DNA of 40,356 bases. Source: Candidatus Acetothermia bacterium. Lineage in GTDB: Bacteria; Bipolaricaulota; Bipolaricaulia; Bipolaricaulales; Bipolaricaulaceae. A model generated the notes under the pieces. That model ran no database searches. It was not told the DNA's origin and saw only the letters and a program-made list of their open reading frames with translations. This document shows positions 9,390 through 17,652 of the stretch, in pieces. The translations under genes and the position numbers were made by a program. The stretch is from positions 1 through 40,356 of the forward strand of contig PXEP01000099.1 in NCBI GenBank assembly GCA_003566155.1, read 5' to 3'. The number at the start of each line of letters is the position of its first letter. Position 1 is the stretch's first letter.

Positions 9390-10292
9390 ATGCAAGCGGT
9401 AATCCTTGCCGGAGGGTATGCAAAGCGGCTGTGGCCGATCACCTACGATCGACCGAAACCCCTGCTCCCGGTCGCGGGAAGACCTATTCTCGATTACATC
9501 GTAAGCCAACTGCCGGAACAACCCGCACCCATACTCTCCATCAACCGGCGGTTCGCCCCACAGTTTGAGCGCTGGGCCGCATCAAGCGCCCGTCCGATCG
9601 AACTGGCCGTCGAGGAGACCCGCGCCGAAGAGGAAAAGCTGGGCGCGGTCGGAGCCCTGGCCCACGTGATCGACAGATATCAACTGGACGACGAGCTTTT
9701 GGTAATCGGGGGAGACAACCTGTTTAGCTTCGCTGTGCAGGACTTCATCAGTGCCTTTCAGGGGCAACCGCTGGTCGCAGTATATGACCTCGGCGACCCA
9801 GAGATTGCCCGCGGCCGGTACGGAGTGGCCCTGGTGGAGAACGGTGTCATAACCGGATTTCAGGAGAAACCCGATCGCCCGGCTTCCGCCCTTGCAGCGA
9901 CCGCCTGTTACCTGTTTCCTCGCCACGTGCTACCGATGATTGATGGATTTCTGGCTCAGTCAGAGCGCGGTTGCGATGCACCTGGATACTTCCTGGAATG
10001 GCTGCGCGCCAGGGAAACTATGCACGCATATCGGTTCGCGGAAGGATGGTTCGATATCGGCGGCCGGGAAGCATACATCGCCGCCAATCTTCATTTCACC
10101 GAAGGGCGTTCATGGATTCACCCTGAGGCAACCGTCGATCAGTCTCGCCTCGAGAGAAGCATCGTGTTAGGGGATGCCTCGATTCGCAACTCGCGTCTCA
10201 CCGAATGTGTCGTCGATGAACACTCCCACCTGGAGGGCGTTGAACTAAGGGATGTCCTCGTCGGTCGGGGAACGCGAATCCGCCCCGGCTAG
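9390..10292 (+). CDS. Sugar-phosphate nucleotidyltransferase with C-terminal left-handed beta-helix
   Basis: MQAVILAGGYAKRLWPITYDRPKPLLPVAGRPILDYI signature; C-terminal hexapeptide-like repeats. Confidence 0.88.
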   Translation: MQAVILAGGYAKRLWPITYDRPKPLLPVAGRPILDYIVSQLPEQPAPILSINRRFAPQFERWAASSARPIELAVEETRAEEEKLGAVGALAHVIDRYQLDDELLVIGGDNLFSFAVQDFISAFQGQPLVAVYDLGDPEIARGRYGVALVENGVITGFQEKPDRPASALAATACYLFPRHVLPMIDGFLAQSERGCDAPGYFLEWLRARETMHAYRFAEGWFDIGGREAYIAANLHFTEGRSWIHPEATVDQSRLERSIVLGDASIRNSRLTECVVDEHSHLEGVELRDVLVGRGTRIRPG

Positions 10293-10769
10293 ACCCTCCT
10301 CCGATTCCTGAAGATCGGCCACGCTGGCCACGCCGAAGTACTGTAGGAAGATGTCCGTAACAGTGAGCCGCTTGCTGGGACCCTCTTCCTCGGCGTCCAC
10401 AAATCCCCGCCCCATGAGGTCCCGTACGTGCCCGTAGGCCCTTTGCCCCCGGATACGTACAAGCTCCGACTGCAGCAGCGGTCCCCTGAAGGCAATGACG
10501 GCCAGCGTCCTCAGAACGGGTTCGGGGATGTCCTGATGGGGGGCCAGCGGGCGTACCTTCTCGGCAAGCTCCGGTTTGACCCGCAGTACATACCCCCCCG
10601 CTTCCTGCACCAGTTCGATGCCCCGTCCTTCTTCCTCTAGGTCCTGGGCAAGGGCGTGCAGAGCGGCGCCAACTGCACCCGGATCCGCTTCCAACACCTG
10701 AGACAACCGGGCAAGCGATACGGGCCCGTCGGCCACAAACAGCGCTGCTTCAATCAGCGCCTGATCCAT
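10245..10769 (-). CDS. scpB: Segregation and condensation protein B
   Basis: ALIEAALFVADGPVSLARLSQVL, LAVIAFRGPLLQSELVRIRGQRAYGHVRDLMGRGFV, TDIFLQYFGV winged-helix motifs; adjacent to scpA and smc. Confidence 0.92.
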   Translation of the reverse strand: MDQALIEAALFVADGPVSLARLSQVLEADPGAVGAALHALAQDLEEEGRGIELVQEAGGYVLRVKPELAEKVRPLAPHQDIPEPVLRTLAVIAFRGPLLQSELVRIRGQRAYGHVRDLMGRGFVDAEEEGPSKRLTVTDIFLQYFGVASVADLQESEEGLAGADSRSPTDEDIP

Positions 10770-11463
10770 CCTCCACAACCTCGATCAGCACTTCCCCCAT
10801 GAAGTCCTGTTGGTAGACGCGCACCGCACCCTGAGCATCCAGGTGCAGAAGTTCCATGAACCGCGCTACCTCCTCCCGCCGATCACGCTTGTCAACCAGC
10901 CGACGGAAGGCCACCACCCGTTCTCCGTTCACCATAGCCGCAAGCCGCCGCAACAACCTCACAGCCCTCTTGGTGAAGGGCTCCCTCTCCAGATCTACCC
11001 CCATGTATTCCCAGTCGGCCTCCACCATGTTGGGCTTCTGCCTGCGATGAGTGGGCCTCAACGCTGCCCATAGTGCTCTTTTCAAGTCCCGCACGGTGGA
11101 ACGCCCTTCGCACCGGCGCACGATCGGCAGACGCAGTTCGGGGGCTATATAGACATCCTGCTCGAAATCCGCGTCCTCGTTTACCTCGTCCACAACCTCC
11201 TCCAACGTGGGCCCGTGACCGTTGCCGTCGTCCTCCCGAACCCAGTCGGACTTCATCCTCAGCAGAACCGAGCCGGCTAGCACCATCCGCCCCGGAACCT
11301 CCAACTCCAGCGCGGCGAACGTCGCCATGTGTTCCCGGAATCTGCGCACCAGCTCCACCAAGTCAACCGCCCAGGGATCAAGTCCCTCGGCCATCCGGCG
11401 CAGCACAGTGTCCCAATCGCCGCGCGCCAGCTCCAACGGTTCCAGCAGCCTGAGCTCACTCAC
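10750..11463 (-). CDS. scpA: Segregation and condensation protein A
   Basis: Helical N-terminal region followed by kleisin winged-helix C-terminus (VVAFRRLVDKRDRREEVARFMELLHLDAQGAVRVYQQDFMGEVLIEVV). GTG start overlaps the smc stop. Confidence 0.85.
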   Translation of the reverse strand: MSELRLLEPLELARGDWDTVLRRMAEGLDPWAVDLVELVRRFREHMATFAALELEVPGRMVLAGSVLLRMKSDWVREDDGNGHGPTLEEVVDEVNEDADFEQDVYIAPELRLPIVRRCEGRSTVRDLKRALWAALRPTHRRQKPNMVEADWEYMGVDLEREPFTKRAVRLLRRLAAMVNGERVVAFRRLVDKRDRREEVARFMELLHLDAQGAVRVYQQDFMGEVLIEVVEDGSGAD

Positions 11464-13930
11464 TTCCCACCAACTCCAACGCCACCACCTCTGAAGCACC
11501 ATCGTGCATTGTGACCCCGTACAGTCGATCCGCGTAGCGCACAACCTCTTCGTTATGGGAGATCACAATTACTTGGGCCTCTGCAGCGAACTCTTTCAGA
11601 AGTCGTGCCAGTCGCTCTGAATTGGCCTGATCCAACGCCGCATCCACCTCATCCAACAGATAAAACGGTGCCGGGCGGCCGGCAGCCAAAGACAGCACAA
11701 AAGCGATCGCCACCAATGTCTTCTCGCCGCCGGACAAAGCATCCAACAGGCGGGGCTCCTTCGCAGGCGGGCGCGCCTTGATCAGAAGTCCCGAGTCGAT
11801 GTTCCCCGGCTCAGCCAACGCCAGCTCTGCCTCTCCTCCGCCGAACAGCCGATTGAACAGCCGGGCTAGTTCCGCCGACACCGCCTCCATCACCGAGAAG
11901 AACCGTTCTTTCTTCTTAGCTTCCACCTCGCCGATGAAGCGTTCGATCTCCTGCTTCTCGCGTTCCAGTGTTTGCACCCGCTCTTTGAACTGCTGGAACT
12001 CATTCAAGAAAGCGTCGTACTCGTCGATCGCCCTCAGGTTCACCGCCCCGAGTTCAGCTATACGCCGCTCAGCTTGTTGCAGCCGGCTGTGCAACACCTC
12101 GAGGCTTCCCTCCTCGGCGCCCCCTTCCGGCGGGGATACCTCACCCAAGGCCGATATTTCTCCGTTCATTTCTGCGAGTTCTCTCTCCCTACGGGAAAGC
12201 GTCCCCCGGACCTTCTCCAACGACAGGTAGGCCTGCTTCCGTCGTTCGCGCAGCTGCCCCAGCTCGGATTCTTCTTCCGCCCGCGAAGCCTTGTTGCGCG
12301 CCTCCTGGGCGCTGTGCTGTTGCAGTTGCGCTTCAGCACTGGTCAGCTCGCCGGAAACACGTTGTATCTCCGAGCGCGCTCGCTGTAGTTCCGCCTGCAT
12401 CTTCTCTATGCGCGACTTGTACTGACCCAGATCAGGGCTGCGCTGCTTTCCTCGGGCAGCTCCACCCACGATAGCCCCACCACGCTCCAACAGATCGCCG
12501 CCCAACGTGACGACCCGCACACCCTGCAGGTCCCGTACACAATCCAAACTCTCCGCTATCACCGTGTCTGTCAGCGCGTAAGCGACAGCGGGCTTCACAT
12601 GCTCGGGGTATTCCACCAGTTCCACAGCAAGTCCGAGCACGCCGGGAAGCTTGAGCGCATTGCGGGCACGGCTGGAGACAGTCGGTGGAGACAGCTTATC
12701 CAACGGAAGGAACCGTGCCCGGCCCAAGTTGTTCTCCTTCAGGAAGTCGACGCACTCCAGCGCCACATCCCGCGTGGTCACCACAAGGTCGTGGACATGC
12801 CCCCCGAGGGCCGTTTCCAGAGCGCTCCCAACATCACGACGCGGGCGAATCAAGGAACCCACAGTGCCTAGAACCCCATCCCAACCGCGCTTGATTAGGG
12901 CATCCACCGCCTCCGGAACCCGCTTGTTCCCACCTGTCCACTGGTTCAACTGCTTCAGTGTGTCCTGCAACGAGGATAGTTCGCGCTCGACCGACCGGGC
13001 TTCCGCTTCCTTCGCCGACAGTTCGCCCCGCAACCGTTCCACCTTCCGCACCAGCTCCACGCCCGTGTCGTCAGTTTCAGAAGGCCCCTGTGACAGGGTA
13101 CGTTCCTTGGCTTCCACCTCCCGATCCAAGCGATCGACCTCGGCCTCGAGCTCACGCACCTCTTCTTGAGCGCGATCCCGCTGGGCCTGGGCCTTATCCC
13201 GCGAAGCGCATAGCGTCTCCCAGCGCCGCCAGCGCAGGGTAGCGGCAAGTTTGTCCCGCTGCTCCGTTAGCGAACGGTATTCCAAAGCGGTTTGGCGTTC
13301 GCGGTGCAGTACTGCCAAGCGCTGTCGTCTTTCCGCGAGGATGATGCGGCTGGTGTTGAGCCGTTCTTTCACCTGCCCCAGCTCCTCAATCGCCTTGGTC
13401 TTCCGCTCTTCGTAGGCCGCCACTCCCGCAACTTCATCCAGGATCTCCCGTCGTCTCTTGGGCGAGCGCTCCAACACGTCCACAACCATGCCCTGTTCCA
13501 CAATGTGGTGTCCATCTGGTTCTATGCTTAGCGCGCCCAACACGTTGTTCACGGAGCGGGCGGGAGCAACCTTCCCCTGAAGTCGGTAAGTGGAACCGGT
13601 TCGCGAAATCCGCCGGCTTAACACTAGTTCCTGTCCACCCTGGGGCAGAAAGTCCTCCAATTCGGCCCCTTCGGTGTTAAGGGTGACCTCCACATCGGCC
13701 TCCCCCACTGGATCGCCCGCTGGCGGAGCGTGCAATAGCTGTTCCATCCTCTCCGCCCGAAGCGAGCGTGAGCGCCGTCCCATGACAAACGTCAGCGCAT
13801 CGAAAATATTGCTCTTGCCCGTTCCGTTCTCCCCGATTATGGCGGTAAATCCTGGGTGAAATGGCACAACCGTCGGGCGGCGGAAAGACTTGAACCCGCT
13901 TACGCTCAGCCGCTTGACGCTACCGCTCAT
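11456..13930 (-). CDS. smc: Chromosome segregation SMC protein, short-armed
   Basis: FKSFRRP, Walker A GENGTGKSN, SMC hinge (GVLGTVGSLIRP...VVTLGGDLLERGGAIVGG), signature LSGGEKTLVAIAF, Walker B FYLLDEVDAALD. 824 aa from ATG 13930. Confidence 0.93.
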   Translation of the reverse strand: MSGSVKRLSVSGFKSFRRPTVVPFHPGFTAIIGENGTGKSNIFDALTFVMGRRSRSLRAERMEQLLHAPPAGDPVGEADVEVTLNTEGAELEDFLPQGGQELVLSRRISRTGSTYRLQGKVAPARSVNNVLGALSIEPDGHHIVEQGMVVDVLERSPKRRREILDEVAGVAAYEERKTKAIEELGQVKERLNTSRIILAERRQRLAVLHRERQTALEYRSLTEQRDKLAATLRWRRWETLCASRDKAQAQRDRAQEEVRELEAEVDRLDREVEAKERTLSQGPSETDDTGVELVRKVERLRGELSAKEAEARSVERELSSLQDTLKQLNQWTGGNKRVPEAVDALIKRGWDGVLGTVGSLIRPRRDVGSALETALGGHVHDLVVTTRDVALECVDFLKENNLGRARFLPLDKLSPPTVSSRARNALKLPGVLGLAVELVEYPEHVKPAVAYALTDTVIAESLDCVRDLQGVRVVTLGGDLLERGGAIVGGAARGKQRSPDLGQYKSRIEKMQAELQRARSEIQRVSGELTSAEAQLQQHSAQEARNKASRAEEESELGQLRERRKQAYLSLEKVRGTLSRRERELAEMNGEISALGEVSPPEGGAEEGSLEVLHSRLQQAERRIAELGAVNLRAIDEYDAFLNEFQQFKERVQTLEREKQEIERFIGEVEAKKKERFFSVMEAVSAELARLFNRLFGGGEAELALAEPGNIDSGLLIKARPPAKEPRLLDALSGGEKTLVAIAFVLSLAAGRPAPFYLLDEVDAALDQANSERLARLLKEFAAEAQVIVISHNEEVVRYADRLYGVTMHDGASEVVALELVGSE

Positions 13931-14172
13931 ACGAGGGAGTCGAACAGTTCCAGCATGACCACTCGCCGGCGGGGCTTGCTGGGCATCTCCCACACAGCAC
14001 CCCCACCCAGCAACGACTCCACCTTATGCCGATTGTAGTCGTTGGGGGTTGCCTCCCCGGCCTCCCACCGCATCACCGTAGGGATGGACACCCCCAAATA
14101 CCCGGCCACAGCCCGTTTGCTAAGACCATGCTCAAGACGATACCTCCTAAGAGCAGGACCTAGACTATCCAT
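13927..14172 (-). CDS. Small XRE-family helix-turn-helix protein (81 aa)
   Basis: MDSLGPALRRYRLEHGLSKRAVAGYLGVSIPTVMRWEAGEATP is a classic Cro/CI HTH. ATGA overlap with the smc start. Confidence 0.82.
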   Translation of the reverse strand: MDSLGPALRRYRLEHGLSKRAVAGYLGVSIPTVMRWEAGEATPNDYNRHKVESLLGGGAVWEMPSKPRRRVVMLELFDSLV

Positions 14173-14266: not shown

Positions 14267-15217
14267 CTAGTTCAGCAGTGTCAAGACCAGTGCTGCTCCA
14301 CCGAGCAACAGTCCTATGATTCCAAGCACCTGGGCTGTGCCCAGCGCATCCCTGAGGGCCGGCACGTCTAGCTCTTCCACCATGCCCTCCAGATCATCTA
14401 CCCGGCTTTCCTGAGTTCCCATGCGGCCTTCGAGATCCCCGATGGCCTTGTCGTGGGCAGAAAGCCTCTCGCTGAATCCGCCCAGTGTAGCTTCCACGCC
14501 TTCGATCTTCTTACGGTTGTTATCGATCTTGATCTGCAACGCTTGAGCGGACTGCTCCAGACCCAACACCCGCCGATGTAGCGAACCCAGGTCCATGTCC
14601 TCCAGCTCAGTGATCCGCTTCTCGTGATCCGAAACCTGTGCGGACAACTGGGAGAAGTCTTCCTTCAGCTCAGTCAGCTGAGTGATCAGCCGACGCATTT
14701 CCTGCTCCACTGCCTGAATCTCGGCGGACAGTTCCGCTTCCAGCTTCTCGATACCGTCGCTGAGTCCAACCTCCAGCTCGGAGATGTCGTACTCGACGCT
14801 GTCTAACCGCTTGTCGAGTCGTTCTATCTGGCGGTCAACTGTGCGCCGCAGTTCGGTCACGGTGCTCCTAAGATCCCCCAAACGCCTATCAAGGTCATGG
14901 ACCTTATCCTGCAACCCCGGCACCTCAGCGCACACCTCAGCCAGCGAGGACAGTTCTTTCTCCAAGCGGCGCAGTTTCACGGATAGTTCGTCATAGCGCG
15001 CTCTCAAGTCCTGGTCAACAGCGTTAAGCGCGGCCACGGCATCCTTCATCTCGGTGATCAACTCCGCGAAGAAGGCAGTCACCTCACCAAAAGCTCGTTC
15101 CATATCGGCGATCTCTTGTTCCGCCGGAGGCAGCTGTACGCCCGAACCGTAGCCGGACAGGGCGCCACCCCCTAACAGGATCACCCCCACCATCAACCAA
15201 CCTATTGTTCGCCTCAT
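14267..15217 (-). CDS. Exported long coiled-coil protein with C-terminal transmembrane segment
   Basis: N-terminal MRRTIGWLMVGVILLGGGALSG signal-like segment, about 250 residues of heptad-like charged/hydrophobic repeats, C-terminal VLGIIGLLLGGAALVLTLLN. Confidence 0.8.
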   Translation of the reverse strand: MRRTIGWLMVGVILLGGGALSGYGSGVQLPPAEQEIADMERAFGEVTAFFAELITEMKDAVAALNAVDQDLRARYDELSVKLRRLEKELSSLAEVCAEVPGLQDKVHDLDRRLGDLRSTVTELRRTVDRQIERLDKRLDSVEYDISELEVGLSDGIEKLEAELSAEIQAVEQEMRRLITQLTELKEDFSQLSAQVSDHEKRITELEDMDLGSLHRRVLGLEQSAQALQIKIDNNRKKIEGVEATLGGFSERLSAHDKAIGDLEGRMGTQESRVDDLEGMVEELDVPALRDALGTAQVLGIIGLLLGGAALVLTLLN

Positions 15218-15401
15218 CACCTGAACCCCTCCTTTTCCGGCGTTCGGACGCCCCAAGGTAGCCTGTGTCACGTTCAGCCACACGGCCCTCTGGGCATCCT
15301 GTAATGCCGGTTTGTCGCCACACGATCAGACAAGTGTCCGCTCGTCACGCGCTGCAGCTGCTATTCGAGGAGAAGAGAACTGCATCCCGCACCCATGTTG
15401 C

Positions 15402-15465: not shown

Positions 15466-17652
15466 ATGGGTGTGTTCGTAGGCGTTGCGGGGCTGGTGGC
15501 TATGGCCGCCGTATTGTGGGCGGCATACTCCACCTGGTCGGTCGTGCGCCATTCCCAAGGGACAGATCGGATGAAGGAGATTCAACATTACATCCGGGAC
15601 GGGGCGTACGCCTTCATGCTGGAGGAGGCCCGAGTGATGGCCATCTCCATGCTGATCGTAGGCGGTGTGCTCGGGATCCTGTTCTACTGGGAAGTGATGG
15701 TGGCGTTCTGGATCGGATCTATCTTGTCCATGGCCGCCGGGTTCGTGGGGATGAACGCGGCTACGCTGGCCAACGGTCGGACGACCGAGGCGGCCCGATC
15801 CTCATTCAAGAAGGCGCTGAACGTAGCGTTTTCCGGGGGGACGGCCATGGGGATGGGCGTAGCCGGTCTCGCGTTGGGCGGTCTGGCCCTGGTGATCTGG
15901 CTGTTCCGGGGGGATTTCGCCCCCGAGACCATCGGCATCGAAACGAAGACCATCCTCGGCATCCCCGGGGCTGATGTGAACTTCATCAAGGCTGCGATCA
16001 TCGTGTCGGCGTATTCGGCCGGCGCCTCGCTGGTGGCTCTGTTCGACCGTGTTGGCGGCGGCATCTACACAAAGGCTGCCGATATGGCAGCGGACATGGT
16101 AGGAAAGGTGGAGCTTCAGCTGCCCGAGGACGATCCGCGCAACCCAGCTACTATTGCCGACAACGTCGGGGACAACGTGGGCGACGTGGGCGGACTGGGG
16201 GCCGACCTGTTGGAGTCGTTCATCGCCTCCATCATCTCGGTGGCCATCATCGGGATGTACCTGTACGTTGGTGACATCGGTGAAGGTGAGGGAATACGCC
16301 AACTGATCGCCCGCTACGGAGTCGACATCCAAGAGATTACCAGCTACTGGTGGATGCTGTTGATGCCAATGCTGTATGTGTCGGGAGGAATTGTCTCCAC
16401 GTTGATAGCGTTCGCCTACATCCGCCTGTCGCGAGCCCAGGAGAACATGCAGCCCGTACTGATGAACGGCACCCGCATCGCAGCGGTGCTCACTGTCGGG
16501 CTGGCCGCCCTTACCACATGGCTTTCGCCGACCAACTTCGTGCCCTTCTGGTGCATGCTGCTCGGTGTAGCCAGCGGAATAGGGATCGGGTTCGTATCAG
16601 AGTACTTCACATCCTCGAGTTACAAACCCACACAGCAGCTGGCCGAATCCTATCAGTCGGGGGCGGCCGTGGGCGTAACCGAAGGGATGGCGGTCGGGAT
16701 GATGTCCTCGTTGTGGCCGTGTCTCATCATCGGCGCAGCCATGGTCATCACCTACCAAGTCGGAGGGCTCCTGGGGACCGCGTTCGGGGCGCTGGGCATG
16801 CTTTCGTTCGTGGGAATGACCGTATCGGTCGACTCCTACGGACCAATCGCCGACAATGCCTCGGGGATCGCCACGATGAGCGAACTTGATCCGTCGGTTC
16901 GTGAACGGACCGACGCTCTGGACGCCATCGGGAACACCACCGCTGCCATCGGCAAGGGCTTTGCCATCGGGTCGGCCGCGTTCGCGGCGCTTGCTCTCAT
17001 CGCGGCTTACCTGTGGTCGGCCGTAGGCGCTGCCGTAGACGTTACCGTCCCGAATATCCCTCTCATTGGCCGAACGGTAGATCACCATGAGGTAGGTTCT
17101 TTGGTGTTGGCAGGGATGATCGTTGGGGGGATGGTTACCTATGTGTTCTCCTCCCTCTTGATTCGGTCCGTGTCCCGCACGGCCAACCTAATGGTGCAGG
17201 AAATCCGGCGGCAGTTCCGGGAAAACCCGGACATCATGGAAGGGAAGACCACCCCGGACTACAAGCGATGTATCACCATCACCGCCTCGGGTGCGACCCG
17301 GCAGATGGTCAAGCCGTCCGCACTCGCCTTGGGAACACCGCTTGTCGTAGGGTTGATTTTTGGCCGGTTTGCGCTGGCCGGTTTTTTGGTCGGAGCCCTG
17401 ATCTCGGCCGTGGTCCTGGCCATCTACTGCGCCAACGCGGGCGGGGCGATGGACAATGCAAAGAAGTACGTCGAAGAGGGGCATTTCGGGGGCAAAAACT
17501 CCGAGGCCCATGCAGCCGGAGTAACAGCGGATACAGTGGGCGATCCGCTTAAGGATACAGTGGGCCCAAGCCTGGACATCCTCATCAAGCTTATGTCCGT
17601 GGTTTCCCTTTTGTTTGCCTCACTGTTCCCGTTATCGCCGTTTTTCATGTAG
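15466..17652 (+). CDS. hppA: Membrane-bound ion-pumping pyrophosphatase (GNTTAA variant suggests K+-dependent; H+ or Na+ coupling not resolved)
   Basis: GGGIYTKAADMAADMVGKVE, PEDDPRNPATIADNVGDNVGDVGGLGADLLES, GNTTAAIGKGFAIGSA motifs; multi-pass hydrophobic profile. Confidence 0.95.
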   Translation: MGVFVGVAGLVAMAAVLWAAYSTWSVVRHSQGTDRMKEIQHYIRDGAYAFMLEEARVMAISMLIVGGVLGILFYWEVMVAFWIGSILSMAAGFVGMNAATLANGRTTEAARSSFKKALNVAFSGGTAMGMGVAGLALGGLALVIWLFRGDFAPETIGIETKTILGIPGADVNFIKAAIIVSAYSAGASLVALFDRVGGGIYTKAADMAADMVGKVELQLPEDDPRNPATIADNVGDNVGDVGGLGADLLESFIASIISVAIIGMYLYVGDIGEGEGIRQLIARYGVDIQEITSYWWMLLMPMLYVSGGIVSTLIAFAYIRLSRAQENMQPVLMNGTRIAAVLTVGLAALTTWLSPTNFVPFWCMLLGVASGIGIGFVSEYFTSSSYKPTQQLAESYQSGAAVGVTEGMAVGMMSSLWPCLIIGAAMVITYQVGGLLGTAFGALGMLSFVGMTVSVDSYGPIADNASGIATMSELDPSVRERTDALDAIGNTTAAIGKGFAIGSAAFAALALIAAYLWSAVGAAVDVTVPNIPLIGRTVDHHEVGSLVLAGMIVGGMVTYVFSSLLIRSVSRTANLMVQEIRRQFRENPDIMEGKTTPDYKRCITITASGATRQMVKPSALALGTPLVVGLIFGRFALAGFLVGALISAVVLAIYCANAGGAMDNAKKYVEEGHFGGKNSEAHAAGVTADTVGDPLKDTVGPSLDILIKLMSVVSLLFASLFPLSPFFM

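Follow-up and report, generated by a model that had tools for sequence, protein, structure and literature searches.

A Probable Housekeeping Smc With Half-Length Arms in Bipolaricaulota

A housekeeping Smc-ScpAB complex is proposed for Bipolaricaulota in which each arm strand of Smc has been shorter by about 178 aa, or about two superhelical turns, since the common ancestor of the Smc-bearing members of the phylum, and which would operate by the standard cycle (probability roughly 0.85). The Smc on which the analysis centres is encoded in the window, the whole stretch of 40,356 nt analysed, which belongs to a fragmented MAG (1.93 Mb in 236 contigs; estimated 83% complete) of Candidatus Acetothermia, a name filed by NCBI under Candidatus Bipolaricaulota. 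No earlier report of a short-arm Smc in Bipolaricaulota was found in the literature.

Architecture and Arm Length of Smc

The smc gene (11456–13930, minus strand), identified from its open reading frame, domain matches and relatives, encodes a half-length-arm Smc ATPase of 824 aa, with an unbroken frame from an ATG at 13930 to a stop at 11456. The earlier note's account of an 824-aa Smc with canonical parts is borne out by matches to SMC_N (PF02463; E-value 2e-63) and SMC_hinge (PF06470; E-value 3e-26, at aa 352–463). All parts lie on the minus strand: the N-terminal head half with Walker A (aa 1–185; 13376–13930) was placed by PF02463 and by PDB alignments to solved Smc heads; the hinge dimerisation domain (aa 340–500; 12431–12913), with GG motifs at its C-terminal end, by PF06470 and alignment to solved hinges; and the C-terminal head half with the signature LSGGEK and Walker B (aa 640–820; 11471–12013) by domain and PDB alignments. 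Profile anchors delimit an N-terminal arm strand of 154 aa (aa 186–339; 12914–13375), compared with about 327 aa in ordinary Smc, and a C-terminal arm strand of 139 aa (aa 501–639; 12014–12430) that includes, near aa 627, a conserved joint-type motif, LGAVNLRAIDEYD.

Profiles (HMMs) were used to set the limits of the two head halves and the hinge, and the residues lying between these limits were counted as arm. On these anchors, arms at 54 phylum loci from four families average 150 aa (SD 5; range 144–158), with about 154 (N) and 139 (C) aa in family f1 and about 162 and 150 aa in families f2, f8, and f9, as against a mean of 325 aa (SD 6; about 327 N and 322 C) in 25 ordinary Smc proteins from other bacterial families. 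The Bacillus subtilis Smc arm comprises 344 aa, in a rod of 47 nm (Burmann et al., 2017; PMC5344682); the anchors read about 19 aa low, such that ordinary Smc needs an offset of about 19 aa to match this value. Calibrated to B. subtilis, the window arm is about 166 aa (0.48 of normal) and arms across the phylum are 164–178 aa. The description of the arms as roughly half-length, made in the earlier note, therefore stands; its counts were 165 and 185 residues, against 154 (N) and 139 (C) aa by the HMM anchors.

The deficit of about 178 aa per strand amounts to 1.96 times the 91-aa functional period and 1.8 times the 99-aa superhelical period of Smc arms (PMC5344682), a two-period match that comes from a single lineage and hinges on the calibration offset. 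In the profile alignment, the neck and joint-type segments are contiguous with the heads, and gaps fall in the middle and hinge-proximal arm, where coiled-coil alignment is weak and breakpoints are approximate. The loss would have been confined to the middle and hinge-proximal arm, sparing the hinge, head, and neck as well as the joint region next to the head, and presumably took out two periods, leaving the hinge-to-head phase unchanged. Because the AlphaFold model of the window Smc is poor (pLDDT 51.6; three-sequence alignment), this account of arm structure rests on sequence anchors.

A standard Smc-ScpAB cycle is most likely, because the catalytic and subunit-contact parts are all conserved. 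Two Smc proteins are predicted to be joined via the hinge, with the ring closed by ScpA-ScpB; ATP-driven head engagement would open the zipped arms, and DNA capture and loop growth would follow. The rod is predicted to be about half the usual length, at about 23 nm rather than about 47 nm (scaled from 47 nm for 344 aa; PMC5344682), and the DNA segment handled per cycle would be smaller if step scales with arm length. An effect on the loop-extrusion step and on arm zipping, as suggested in the earlier note, is possible.

Distribution and History in the Phylum

Homologues of the short Smc were found in 74 of 100 Bipolaricaulota genomes; wherever the alignment is intact, it runs collinear with the short protein. 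The earlier note had asked for the length distribution of Smc in the phylum: among intact homologues in the 100 genomes all are short, with no long Smc and none near 1180 aa. Some open frames extend to 1250 aa, as stop-to-stop frames that take in upstream sequence; the longest (G013, 1250 aa) belongs to the same arm class (mean 145.5 aa). In a tree based on head and hinge, the 54 phylum Smc proteins form one clade (support 0.995), and the simplest reading would be a single shortening in the common ancestor of Smc-bearing Bipolaricaulota, before the families split. In one genome (G072; L097), smc appears to be divided between two sites on one contig, with an in-frame TAG, probably through an assembly or sequencing fault.

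Of the 26 genomes with no homologue, 19 make up families f3–f7 (G046–G064), and the remaining seven are mostly incomplete genomes. Neither an Smc hinge, nor ScpB, nor MksE was detected in these 19 genomes, several of which are >90% complete, and families f3–f7 appear to have undergone clade-wide loss of all tested condensins. MksE (PF13835) was found in 0 of the 100 phylum genomes, and MksBEF was not found as a substitute in the Smc-less families.

ParB and Smc Loading

ParB is the usual loader of Smc. Among the 100 phylum genomes, TIGR00180 (ParB) matches 16, two of them over the cut-off, and PF02195 matches 15. ParB is matched in 8 of 71 Smc-bearing genomes of the phylum vs. 192 of 204 elsewhere (Fisher p 2e-40, on genomes of one clade that are non-independent and count as one event). 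Because ParB is nearly absent from these genomes, Smc loading in Bipolaricaulota most likely needs no ParB-parS. Loss of ParB alone does not shorten Smc, since ParB is missing from 12 Smc-bearing genomes outside the phylum, and wherever their frames are intact the Smc is full length: G108 (1176 aa), G137 (1205 aa), G145 (1254 aa), G148 (1188 aa), G219 (1139 aa), G256 (1169 aa), G282 (1190 aa), G290 (1183 aa), and G367 (1206 aa). One of the two phylum ParB-family proteins over the cut-off (L121, in G021) has repeats resembling a CRISPR array downstream.

The short-arm Smc might instead act mainly as a local DNA-bridging or repair clamp without large loops, with chromosome segregation carried out by something else; the near absence of ParB would fit such a role, as would families f3–f7, which indicate that Smc is dispensable in the group. 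This alternative is considered unlikely: conservation extends to head, hinge, kleisin, and kite, and the tight arm length (SD 5 aa) argues for a length-dependent motor function.

Partner Genes and Identity of the Smc

Gene ends overlap along smc, scpA, and scpB, all on the minus strand. The scpA gene (10750–11463), which shares 8 bp with the end of smc, encodes a 237-aa kleisin (PF02616, E-value 5e-7, above the cut-off; synteny in relatives), and scpB (10245–10778) encodes a 177-aa kite subunit (PF04079, E-value 2e-37, over the cut-off). The order smc-scpA-scpB is kept in 41 of the 42 phylum loci examined. The best NCBIfam models for the window Smc are SMC_prok_A and SMC_prok_B, and the solved structures closest to it are Smc heads and hinges. 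On this evidence the sequence supports assignment as the housekeeping Smc of Smc-ScpAB, the prokaryotic condensin, in agreement with the earlier note, which had taken it for the main condensin and not Rad50/SbcC.

It is very unlikely that the protein belongs elsewhere in the SMC family, with Rad50/SbcC, MksB/JetC, or the archaeal SMC-related proteins. It narrowly misses the NCBIfam Smc cut-offs (SMC_prok_B, 566.8 vs. 567.35 bits; SMC_prok_A, 642.8 vs. 729.4 bits), a shortfall that would be expected from the missing portion of the arm, which the bits lost fit; the hinge is a true SMC hinge, scpA and scpB adjoin, and the phylum genomes lack MksE. Rad50/SbcC was rejected on a search for the zinc-hook, in which a true SMC hinge was found, and on the partners, which are ScpAB and not Mre11/SbcD; MksBEF/Wadjet was rejected on the absence of MksE from the 100 phylum genomes together with the presence of ScpAB.

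It is scarcely credible that the short arms come from misassembly, an in-frame deletion or a pseudogene peculiar to this genome, even for so fragmented a MAG: dozens of independent assemblies, among them the single-contig relatives G004 and G005 (one short Smc each), give the same length to within a few residues, and the closest relative is 80% identical across aa 1–824 (next locus 69%; both Candidatus Acetothermia MAGs); the misassembly or frame-preserving deletion that the earlier note wished to see checked is answered by the same agreement. A second, full-length smc, also raised there, was not found in the 83%-complete source genome, which has a single protein over the SMC_N cut-off and a single hinge.

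Smc Length Outside the Phylum and Comparison With Known Systems

No comparably short intact Smc was found among about 170 Smc genomes sampled from other bacterial families, from which 172 hinge-bearing open frames were listed (median 1203 aa), with 33 further genomes, having weak hinge matches, left out of the listing. Outside frames below about 1040 aa were rejected as short Smc. Of those fetched, L076, L077, L078, and L080 are cut at contig ends, L075 has a frameshift, and L074 is a code-4 sequence that reads through TGA codons; G112, G258, G296, and G353 were judged by position only, each lying in a very fragmented assembly or at, or close to, a contig end. A real intermediate is the 1044-aa Smc of G117 (L079), with arms of 256 and 227 aa on the same anchors as used for the phylum; calibrated to B. 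subtilis, they measure about 261 aa, within the 253–267 aa viable window and the one-period-shorter class (PMC5344682).

The arm lengths of natural prokaryotic Smc cluster in modes of 238, 341, and 515 aa, with two further minor modes, of 163 and 423 aa, given as possible (PMC5344682). The 163-aa mode is practically equal to the arm of the phylum Smc; it is given as "possible" only, with no taxon in the main text of PMC5344682, whereas the whole phylum is placed there here, and the mode itself may derive from other taxa. Because arm length varies naturally within the Smc family (PMC5344682), short arms that fall outside the 340-aa class would mark a variant of Smc-ScpAB rather than an exclusion from it. 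The phylum complex resembles B. subtilis Smc-ScpAB in its head motifs, hinge, joint-type motif, and scpA and scpB partners, but differs in its arm (about 166 vs. 344 aa), in having almost no ParB, and in the position of smc after a small HTH gene. MksBEF/Wadjet and archaeal SMC-related proteins are likewise shorter SMC-type ATPases, but the families differ, and the partners in the phylum are ScpA and ScpB.

In a B. subtilis screen of 258 shortened constructs, with a stated range of 6–60 nm, the only viable shortened arms were those of 253–267 aa and those near wild type (PMC5344682); from that range, arms of about 166 aa were presumably tested and failed. The phylum Smc is like the engineered B. 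subtilis Mini-Smc in its short arms, intact head and hinge, and length in superhelical steps (PMC5344682), but is natural and lies about one period below the shortest viable engineered class (253–267 aa). The arm of about 166 aa found throughout the phylum is what the 91-aa periodicity rule would predict if it extends two turns down. Bipolaricaulota offer a natural test of arm length as the setter of Smc loading and movement on DNA. For SMC motors at large, arm length might govern the DNA step, the loading reaction, or ring size only, a question so far probed with engineered Mini-Smc proteins, which mostly fail. The small complex (824, 237, and 177 aa) could also suit cryo-EM and single-molecule step measurement.

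Genes Upstream of smc

A small XRE-type HTH protein of 81 aa (13927–14172, minus strand), identified by domain match and synteny, is encoded by a gene that overlaps the start codon of smc in an ATGA. Of 42 phylum loci, about 25 have such a gene directly upstream of smc, most of them with the ATGA stop/start overlap, and a PNDYNRxKIE-like motif is conserved in the protein across families f1 and f9. The 81-aa protein is possibly a DNA recruiter or autoregulator. A fuller scheme, in which a quantised, two-turn-shorter Smc is combined with ParB-free loading in Bipolaricaulota, and the smc-coupled HTH protein acts as a sequence-specific recruiter that replaces ParB, is doubtful.

Farther upstream, a gene (14267–15283, minus strand) encodes a coiled-coil protein with an N-terminal hydrophobic and a C-terminal TM-like segment, associated with smc by synteny only; because coiled-coil matches are promiscuous, synteny is the stronger evidence, and a gene of this type precedes the smc-side HTH position in about 39 of 42 phylum loci. 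It is adjoined by a gene (15466–17652, plus strand) that, from a reading of its sequence, is named as a divergent V-type H+-pyrophosphatase.
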